Shown: positions 28,735-29,802 of the stretch, in pieces
How positions within the stretch are numbered: the stretch's first letter is position 1
Layout: each line of letters begins with the position of its first letter
Assembly (NCBI GenBank): GCA_029279965.1
Contig: JAJUHJ010000018.1
Span: 1-37,213, forward strand
DNA length: 37,213 nucleotides
Direction of reading: 5' to 3'
Source of the DNA: Phyllobacteriaceae bacterium
GTDB taxonomy: Bacteria; Pseudomonadota; Alphaproteobacteria; Rhizobiales; Rhizobiaceae
Program-made: the position numbers and the translations under genes
The notes under the pieces: generated by a model
Seen by the model: the letters and a program-made list of their open reading frames with translations, nothing else
Told to the model about the DNA's origin: nothing
Database searches by the model: none

Positions 28735-28831
28735 CATCGGCCGGAAATCTTGATCGATTTTCGGAAAGCACGATGCGTGGCTTCGATGAGGTAGAGCGTC
28801 CTTGTGCGTCCAAAAAGACGCACGGCGCTAT
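28735..28831 (+). repeat. RIME-like double-palindrome repeat, copy 1
   Basis: About 97 bases. First palindrome: CCGGAAATC with GATTTTCGG (one G-T pair). Second: GTGCGTC with GACGCAC around CAAAAA. It shares a 26-base identical stretch (28753-28778) and a 15-base stretch (28814-28828) with the copy at 33181. Size, two-palindrome layout and intergenic position recall the mosaic elements (RIME) described in rhizobia. Its last bases form the TAG stop of the convergent transporter gene. Confidence 0.8.
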
Positions 28832-29454
28832 CGGGTCGACCCGACCGGCCTGAGCACCGATAAAAGCGCGCCATAAGGCACCAGCATGACAAGGCTGACG
28901 AGGAGTTTCACGCCGAAATCGCCGAGCGCCAGCGAAACCCAAAGCGGCACGCTTGCGTCAGTGCCAAACAGGAATACGGAAAATGGAAGCGACCCGTCCT
29001 CAAGCCCCAACCCAGTGTCGAGGAAGGAGAACGCGGCCGCAAAGGCGATCGAGAAGAACAGCACCGTATCCAGCACCGAACCGATGAGCGTCGAGACGAG
29101 CGGCGCCTGCCACCACGCGCTCCCCCGCAGCCGGTCGAAGATGGCAACATCAAGAAGCTGTGCGGCGAGGAACGCCATGCCCGAGGCGAGGGCAAGGCGT
29201 GGGGTCGCCAGCCAGATCGATAGAAGCACCGCCACACCAAAACCGACGAGAACAACGCGGCGTGCGGCCTTCGGGCCGAACTGCCGGTTCGTCAGATCGT
29301 TGATGAGAAAGGCAACGGGGTAGGTGAAAGCGCCCCAGGTGAGAATTTCGCCAAGCCCGAAATGAGCGAAGGGGAACTGCACCAGAATGTTTGAGGCGAC
29401 CACGACGGCCGCCATCGCGGCCACGAATGGCCATACTGCTTGGATGCGGAGCAT
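28828..29454 (-). CDS. Queuosine precursor transporter, VUT/YhhQ family
   Basis: A 208-residue inner-membrane protein of the VUT (COG1738, YhhQ) family, which imports queuosine precursors (preQ0/preQ1) for tRNA modification. It has about six hydrophobic segments; family motifs include ASNILVQFPF, WGAFTYPVAFLINDLTNRQFG, MAFLAAQLLDVAIFDRLR, WWQAPLVSTLIGSVLDT and FSIAF. No queuosine enzyme gene is in the window. The gene follows rpmB by 51 bases, and that gap carries a preQ1-I-type riboswitch reaching into the start codon, so synthesis is probably shut off when preQ1 is plentiful. The stop codon lies within an intergenic repeat. Confidence 0.93.
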   Translation of the reverse strand: MLRIQAVWPFVAAMAAVVVASNILVQFPFAHFGLGEILTWGAFTYPVAFLINDLTNRQFGPKAARRVVLVGFGVAVLLSIWLATPRLALASGMAFLAAQLLDVAIFDRLRGSAWWQAPLVSTLIGSVLDTVLFFSIAFAAAFSFLDTGLGLEDGSLPFSVFLFGTDASVPLWVSLALGDFGVKLLVSLVMLVPYGALLSVLRPVGSTR

Positions 29455-29481
29455 TTTTTTATCCTGGGTGATGGAACCAGC
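29452..29481 (-). promoter_or_regulatory. PreQ1-I-type riboswitch overlapping the transporter start codon
   Basis: Minus-strand elements in order: CTGG (29480-29477), loop TTC-CAT-CA, the Cys-like specificity base C (29468), CCAG (29467-29464) closing helix P1, then GAT and an A6 tract (29460-29455), then ATG (29454-29452). The order GG-TTC-NNN-...CACCC...ATAAAAAA-NNN is the preQ1-I core. Loop CAT (29473-29471) is complementary to the ATG, giving the three-pair P2 pseudoknot. AGGA, the only ribosome-binding site, overlaps the 3' strand of P1. Ligand binding would hide both the ribosome site and the AUG. Family and gene context agree. Confidence 0.85.
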
Positions 29482-29505
29482 GGGCTTGAGGCGCCCTGCG
29501 GAAAC

Positions 29506-29802
29506 TCAGGCTTCGGCCTGCTCTGCCAGCTTCTTTGCCACCTGCTTCTTCAAGAGGCGCGCGCGCTGCGAAAGCTCGTTGGACTTCGCCTTCAAGAGAA
29601 AGGCGTCAAGCCCGCCACGATGCTCCACCGTACGCAGCGCACTGGCCGAGACACGCAAACGAACGTTCCGCTCCAGAGCCTCGGAGATCAACGTTACGTC
29701 GCAGAGATTGGGGAGGAAGCGGCGCCGGGTCTTGTTGTTGGCGTGGCTTACATTGTTGCCGCTCATAACGGCTTTGCCGGTCAGTTCGCAAGCGCGGGAC
29801 AT
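29506..29802 (-). CDS. rpmB: 50S ribosomal protein L28
   Basis: L28, 98 residues, a structural protein of the large subunit. The start [20 protein letters not shown] and [17 protein letters not shown] are diagnostic; the zinc-finger Cys set of some L28 forms is absent apart from the two scattered Cys. AAAGGT lies before the ATG. It is probably the first gene of an rpmB-transporter transcript, with a good promoter about 90-120 bases upstream. Confidence 0.97.

Follow-up and report, generated by a model that had tools for sequence, protein, structure and literature searches.

Can a start codon be at once the signal for translation and a strand of the RNA sensor that controls it? The question is raised by a queuosine precursor transporter gene of the COG1738 family, located behind rpmB, at whose start the minus strand reads CUGG-UUC-CAU-CAC-CCAG-GAUAAAAAA-AUG in the 5′ to 3′ direction. 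The window, that is, the whole stretch of DNA analyzed, comprised 37,213 nt from Phyllobacteriaceae bacterium (assembly GCA_029279965.1, contig JAJUHJ010000018.1, positions 1 to 37,213; GTDB lineage Bacteria; Pseudomonadota; Alphaproteobacteria; Rhizobiales; Rhizobiaceae); "the family" (f1) refers below to the window's own family. An initial annotation had described a preQ1-I-like element consisting of P1 CTGG/CCAG, a TTC-CAT loop, CACCC, an A6 tract and ATG. All of these letters were present in that order on the minus strand, and the AGGA that had been placed across P1 indeed shares its AG with this stem and ends 7 nt before the ATG. Both neighboring genes, rpmB and then the transporter, were named as expected by profile searches, the transporter scoring 94.4 bits with TIGR00697 (cut-off 50.95) and 89.5 bits with Vut_1 (cut-off 27.2). 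Just 5′ of P1, a G+C-rich inverted repeat (GGGC...GCCC; window 29483-29497, minus strand) was noted, likewise present in several relatives, which is possibly the rpmB terminator or a hairpin stacking on P1.

Following comparison with related genomes, we consider it very probable that the element is a translational preQ1-I riboswitch resembling type III, in which the start codon, rather than the Shine-Dalgarno (SD) sequence, would supply one strand of P2. The positions of its predicted parts and of the flanking genes are given in Table 1.

Table 1. Genes and predicted aptamer parts in the window.
Feature	Position	Strand	Basis
Queuosine precursor transporter COG1738/QPTR, predicted controlled gene	28828..29454	-	TIGR00697 and Vut_1 profiles
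rpmB (L28), upstream gene on the same strand as the transporter	29506..29802	-	Profile searches
Whole predicted aptamer, from P1 5′ strand to first base of codon 2	29451..29480	-	Window sequence
P1 5′ strand, CUGG	29477..29480	-	CUGG/CCAG in 166/168 copies
U6-U7-C8 (UUC form)	29474..29476	-	Letters of the window
Predicted P2 5′ strand, anti-start-codon CAU	29471..29473	-	CAU in 168/168; third base free in the pattern
L2, CAC; last C corresponds to the preQ1 specificity base	29468..29470	-	C demanded by the pattern; preceding base A in 140/168
P1 3′ strand, CCAG	29464..29467	-	Pairs with CUGG
SD AGGA, overlapping P1 3′ strand and L3	29462..29465	-	AGGN or GGGA in 158/168
L3, GAUAAAAAA (GAT and A6 in DNA), also the SD-AUG spacer	29455..29463	-	Exactly so in 122/168
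Start codon AUG, predicted P2 3′ strand	29452..29454	-	AUG triplet in 168/168
First base of codon 2 (C)	29451..29451	-	Pairs with loop position 8 in UGG/UGC forms, not in the window's UUC form

Copies were collected using a pattern that required a paired 4-base P1, a T after P1, CA in the loop, a C before the P1 3′ strand and at least four A followed by ATG, GTG or TTG. Left free were the third base of CAN, the first base of the start triplet (A, G or T), loop positions 7 and 8, the junction, in part the first three P1 bases, and all bases downstream of the start triplet. The constancy of U6, of the specificity C, of the adenines before AUG and of P1 pairing is therefore partly by construction.

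In a first survey, the transporter was sought in 101 genomes and the upstream DNA was inspected. Within the family, it was found in 58 of 61 genomes, and the element was located at 56 of these genes, 55 by the strict pattern and one, in G020 (L045), with P1 CCGG/CCGG; the remaining two were G019 (L064) and G021 (L053, a degenerate copy). A second set covered 58 further genera of the family, with the transporter in 56 and the element at 53 of them (lacking in G487, G463, and G496). Combined, 109 of 114 transporter genes carried the preQ1-I features (P1, A-rich L3, C before the P1 3′ strand, U after the P1 5′ strand, and P2), these features being the search conditions. At strongly matching transporters from other families of the order, the element was present in 0 of 18. 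A third set of 39 genomes was picked for oddity and yielded losses and variants of the element; it stands outside the count of 109/114, its copies being included in the 168 analyzed below. Conservation of the CAT/ATG complementarity and the A-tract among relatives, on which the initial annotation had made its proposal depend, was thus observed within the family and not in the other families of Hyphomicrobiales. The proposed unity of aptamer and start was supported, and its restriction to "this species" was not, the element occurring throughout the family.

A covariance model (R1) was built from the first 55 copies (alignment A1). Its only match at E ≤ 1 in the window genome was 29446-29481, at 58.3 bits. 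Over 394 genomes of the family, 375 matched at E ≤ 1 and approximately 355 at E ≤ 1e-5 (rows counted by eye); the lowest family copies in an R1 search scored 34 bits, and weak second matches were also seen in family genomes. Over 397 genomes of the order, scores were at least 45 bits in 19 of 21 family genomes and at most 25.4 bits in 18 other genomes, and over 289 genomes of the class nothing outside the family exceeded 25.4 bits. Three loci (L108, L245, and L246) were inspected as candidate copies and taken as chance. When named genomes were scanned with a pattern covering only the long-tail form (one extra A), 12 matches were obtained, in records titled Rhizobium, Neorhizobium, Endobacterium, Mesorhizobium, Aureimonas, Bartonella, Pseudohoeflea, a Phyllobacteriaceae MAG and a Rhizobiales bacterium. 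Copies were obtained from at least 94 genera in total. The element characterizes the whole family of the rhizobia group and is not general in Hyphomicrobiales.

At 17 family transporters without the element, R1 gave only two matches, of 12-14 bits, neither of which was accepted as a copy; L195 and L053 showed degenerate remnants by eye. Other type III-like hairpins were sought at loci without a listed element, and only five loci were obtained, their hairpins being the element itself (copies or duplicates). Seven genomes of the g88 group were examined, all containing the transporter; two larger ones kept the element and it was gone from five small ones. Loss of this type was seen at L184, L185, L188, L191, and L193, the aptamer being kept in the larger relatives L186, L187, and L239. 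One g88 genome with the element is 80% identical to Bartonella sp. M0177 over 1.6 kb, which makes g88 a probable Bartonella. For B. henselae, a lack of the enzymes that convert preQ1 to Q has been reported (PMC11570991), which may fit relaxed control. Six g218 genomes had the transporter and lacked the element. Separately, G663, listed with 4% contamination, carried two transporter copies (L284 and L263), each with its own UGG-form element, and the open reading frame behind the aptamer AUG in G020 (L275/L045) was 264 aa long, including roughly 50-60 additional residues at the N-terminus.

A match to the Rfam model RF00522, by which the initial annotation would have had the element judged, was not obtained: a 76-nt scan in the window gave 11 bits (gathering cut-off 39), and the cut-off was exceeded in 0 of 30 family genomes. 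The yhhQ leader of E. coli MG1655, which we take to be the crystallised type III aptamer, reads GGG-UUCCCUCAC-CCC and has tusA, not rpmB, as its neighbor gene; RF00522 gave no match at this leader (L088, 5000-5300). RF00522 thus seems not to cover type III, and since it also misses this leader, its miss in the window does not discriminate. These scans suggest that the Rfam preQ1 model misses both the predicted anti-AUG form and type III.

Base pairing was analyzed in 168 non-redundant copies, defined as having a different 5′ context, from fetched loci. Majority shares per column were calculated for 56 loci, mostly one per genus. The mean was 0.39 over the 40 nt upstream, values of 0.98-1.0 were reached in the columns of CTGGT..CAT except for its two variable loop columns (0.66 and 0.73), and ATG was at 1.0, followed by codon 2 at 0.36-0.43. 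In part, the fixed columns follow from the search pattern itself; the coverage of 109/114 genes does not. P1 deviated from CUGG/CCAG in two copies, each with a compensated double change (CUAG/CUAG in L180, CCGG/CCGG in L045). The P1 5′ strand was followed by UU in 93 copies and by UG in 75, the first U being set by the pattern, and where the base before the final, pattern-set C of L2 was not A, it was C or T (28/168). The three CAU/AUG pairs never vary.

Variation informative on P2 was found next to the start codon. All 56 copies with loop UGG-CAU had AUG-C and all 19 with UGC-CAU had AUG-G; for the 93 copies with UUC-CAU, the base after AUG was A in 55, C in 25, T in 13 and G in none. The 102 copies from the two surveys alone gave G-C in 35/35, C-G in 9/9 and no G in 58 copies of the UUC form. 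Judged by these counts, the predicted fourth P2 pair, between loop position 8 and the base after AUG, forms either way round, as G-C or C-G, and appears to be avoided in the UUC form. Loop position 7 and the second base after AUG would pair in 76/168 copies, which does not support a pairing there. A tree was constructed from the transporters of 120 of the 168 copies, namely those with the whole gene on the locus. This tree implies 6 changes of loop form. For the base after AUG, it implies 22 changes within the 69 UUC rows and none within the 39 UGG or the 12 UGC rows. The UUC rate would predict approximately 13 and 7 changes, giving Poisson P(0) values of 2e-6 and 8e-4; these values are rough, since parsimony counts are treated as events. 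Covariation with codon 2 is based on 6 loop changes. Independent-pair tests, carried out on an earlier tree that included five wrong-frame proteins, had 3 pairs each, none opposed, and were therefore not able to reach significance.

A pair counter, applied to 43 of 60 distinct forms (equal length only), gave 92.7% paired, a value reached in 0 of 500 shuffles. The covariation score of 0.034 lay above shuffles and was matched by a +3 slide control (0.037, with 26.5% paired), and the count of further pair types was not above shuffles in these 43 rows. Folding energy compared with shuffles gave no signal (z 0.06 for 34 nt, 0.22 for 63 nt), and with 63 nt of context the minimum-energy fold differs from the proposed pseudoknot. 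As thermodynamics alone shows nothing, the case rests on comparison. The coverage of 109/114 genes and the covariation beyond AUG argue for a preQ1-I-like element with the start codon in its pseudoknot more strongly than had originally been stated.

According to one alternative, the element is a preQ1-I aptamer acting only via burial of the SD in P1 and L3, the complementarity of CAU and AUG being incidental. Such a reading accommodates the AGGN or GGGA found at P1/L3 in 158/168 copies, as well as the description of types I and II as burying only the first two SD bases in P2 (PMC10622847). It does not account for pairing that goes beyond AUG and tracks the loop as G-C and as C-G, nor for the ten copies without a P1-linked SD (L024, L073, L196, L197, L199, L200, L202, L203, L223, and L225). 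The best-matching frame behind each of the 168 copies was a transporter frame, and the transporter continued in AUG's own frame in 159, the window included (L239 judged on approximately 12 residues in both cases). Copies with a P1-linked SD (AGG or GGGA) had AUG in frame with the transporter in 158/158. The ten SD-less copies have AGC and a fifth P1 pair, G-C (10/10), are all of the UGC form followed by AUGG-A, and keep CAU/AUG and the C-G pair after it in 10/10. In nine of them the transporter lies in another frame, with ATG or GTG 8-11 nt after the GGA of AUGGA; the tenth, L223, has GTG in the same frame, at the position where its relative L197 starts, and is ambiguous. On the tree, the SD-less state requires at least two changes (7 rows). 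From the frame of the transporter and the distance to ATG or GTG, AUGGA is probably the SD in these copies; on loss of the SD from P1, AUGGA in P2 would take over this role and the start would move downstream, as in E. coli type III. Since the pairing is kept though the gene starts elsewhere in nine of ten, CAU/AUG appears to be held as RNA structure and not as coding sequence. We regard SD burial alone as unlikely. The claim that aptamer and translation start are one object holds for 158/168 copies and has to be withdrawn for about ten, whose pseudoknot AUG is not the start codon.

The aptamer might also recognize another deazaguanine, for instance preQ0 or queuine. Substrates of this transporter family include preQ0 and preQ1 (E. 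coli) as well as queuine (Chlamydia) according to PMC11130926, and variants at loop positions 7-8 could alter selectivity. The queuosine genes of the window genome speak against this option, which we hold to be improbable. Genes for TGT and QueA are adjacent (contig C55:16954-19121), and QueA is described as acting after insertion of preQ1 (PMC11570991). QueF, sought by profile search in this assembly of 206 contigs, gave no match, and preQ0 would thus be a dead end. Matches to the QueC family scored 21.1 bits (22 with neighbors) and 21.6 bits (cut-off 22); 41 of 41 genomes counted were over this cut-off, with 180-234 bits in 11 of them, and the weak matches are read as other enzymes. Among 25 family genomes, a strong QueC match was present in 4 and QueF exceeded its cut-off in 12. 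With TGT and QueA present, no QueF and only weak QueC matches, the transporter is probably the main source of preQ1 in the window genome, as far as an assembly in 206 contigs can tell, and the organism is likely a preQ1 salvager. Two reports support preQ1 uptake in the rhizobia group: 300 nM preQ1 rescued queC and queF mutants of S. meliloti (PMC3568095), and B. henselae QPTR uses preQ1 (PMC11570991); the word "riboswitch" is absent from the main texts of both papers. Paralogous transporters without the element were noted at G007:C14:274148-278263 and G065:C22:7663-16981, near QueC and a partial TGT match or near QueF; these loci are perhaps 7-deazaguanine clusters of another kind.

Very unlikely, in our assessment, is the absence of any riboswitch, the transporter start being a site for a protein such as L28 or for an antisense RNA. 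An rpmB match was located at most 1 kb upstream on the same strand in 168/168 copies, its aligned end 26-464 nt from the element, and the 29-nt near-invariant stretch could be a protein site. However, rpmB also precedes 15 of the 17 family transporters without the element, so this gene order is independent of the element; variation tracks base pairing, and E. coli yhhQ has a near-identical loop beside tusA rather than rpmB. Moreover, the bases that do not vary coincide with those described as surrounding preQ1 in the structure from E. coli (PMC10622847). Finally, a chance resemblance, or a strong initiation site conserved without a fold, is hardly credible: folding energies equal to those of shuffles and the sub-threshold RF00522 score would fit it, but it is already contradicted by the comparative data, namely the presence at 109/114 family genes with poorly conserved flanks, the compensated P1, the covariation beyond AUG and the retention of AUG where it is not the start.

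In short, the preferred reading, a preQ1-I switch with the start codon in P2, would operate as follows. Without ligand, the A-rich tail and AUG would be free and the ribosome would start on AGGA/AUG. On binding of preQ1, the H-type pseudoknot would close, with CUGG/CCAG as P1 and loop CAU and AUG as P2; the A-tract would lie along P1 and preQ1 would sit between the helices, with the AUG paired next to it. SD, spacer, and AUG, in that order, coincide with the 3′ half of the aptamer, so that sensor and initiation site would be one object. All three would be hidden from the ribosome together, and transporter synthesis would consequently drop when the precursor is abundant, independently of rpmB. 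A minority of lineages has lost the P1-linked SD; there, the role of SD probably falls to AUGGA in P2, and the gene would start 8-11 nt further on.

Probably, this arrangement represents a fourth preQ1-I design. The pseudoknot that binds the ligand would use the start codon as one of its structural strands, placing the A in the ceiling of the pocket and the G in P2, and in nearly half of the copies the fold would reach codon 2 and dictate the first base of the protein's second codon. The P2 strand would have been re-used at least twice in one family as SD, with the start moved to another frame. The preQ1-I switches described so far in the literature consulted hide the SD or form a terminator. 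Among the literature matches listed (title and start of abstract), no alphaproteobacterial preQ1-I element was found and none pairing with a start codon; a 2014 subtype survey may include rhizobial sequences. Between a switch directed against the SD and one directed against the start codon, the ligand pocket being shared, a single compensated change (loop CCU versus CAU, tail AGG versus AUG) would make the difference; one bacterial family apparently contains both designs. This makes testable whether masking of AUG alone is sufficient for translational control and how expression platforms are exchanged, and it would provide a case of a riboswitch constraining coding sequence. For the transporter, a probable regulator can thereby be assigned in no fewer than 94 genera. 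In rhizobia and related bacteria, the opening bases of a gene for import of a tRNA-modification precursor appear to belong to a very small RNA that would sense this precursor and mask the start signal itself rather than only the landing site of the ribosome.

Several known switches were compared with the element. SAM-II and other direct-occlusion switches are small pseudoknots containing translation-initiation signals (PMC10907184), as the pseudoknot predicted here would be. There, the ribosome-binding site is buried, and the sections of that source consulted describe no start codon as a pseudoknot strand. Type I preQ1-I aptamers (Can) share UU on top of the P1 5′ strand with the UUC form (93/168). 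They differ in their UC at the junction to the P1 3′ strand and in a larger loop that accommodates two ligands (PMC11625349), whereas the junction here is AC in 140/168. This AC and the A-rich L3 are common to type II (Tte, B. subtilis queC; RF00522), which has a canonical P2 in B. subtilis queC (PMC11625349). The element departs from type II in its predicted anti-AUG, used instead of an SD or terminator strand, and in its RF00522 score of 11 bits.

Most features are shared with type III. Both precede genes of the same family (yhhQ/COG1738) and share an H-type pseudoknot of P1 and P2 (predicted for the element), a C before the P1 3′ strand, an A-rich tail and an adenine directly before the P2 3′ strand. 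The loop of the UUC form, UUCCAUCAC, is the same as that of E. coli at 8/9 positions (UUC-C(C/A)U-CAC), the sole difference, E. coli C10 to A10 here, matching the change of G29 to U29 and of AGG to AUG. In the E. coli structure, U11-A28, C10-G29, and C9-G30 are paired and the triples U7-A27-preQ1 and C8-A28-U11 are formed (PMC10622847); U7 and C8 of the window correspond to the bases of these triples. By contrast, the second loop form (UGG/UGC, 75/168), with a fourth P2 pair, carries at position 7 a G instead of the U that takes part in U7-A27-preQ1 in E. coli. Type III is marked by an occluded AAGG, by UU and AC junctions and by a range almost wholly within Pseudomonadota (PMC11625349), described elsewhere as almost exclusively gammaproteobacterial (PMC10622847), whereas the element occurs in one alphaproteobacterial family. 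All 168 copies have AUG as the predicted P2 3′ strand (the start codon in 158) rather than the AGG of the SD, and the SD lies on P1; the ten SD-less copies, in which P2 carries GGA, are closer to type III. Because P2 is not the SD in 158/168 copies, the element was not filed as type III, though it would work like type III, and it is best called a sibling or derived form of that type.
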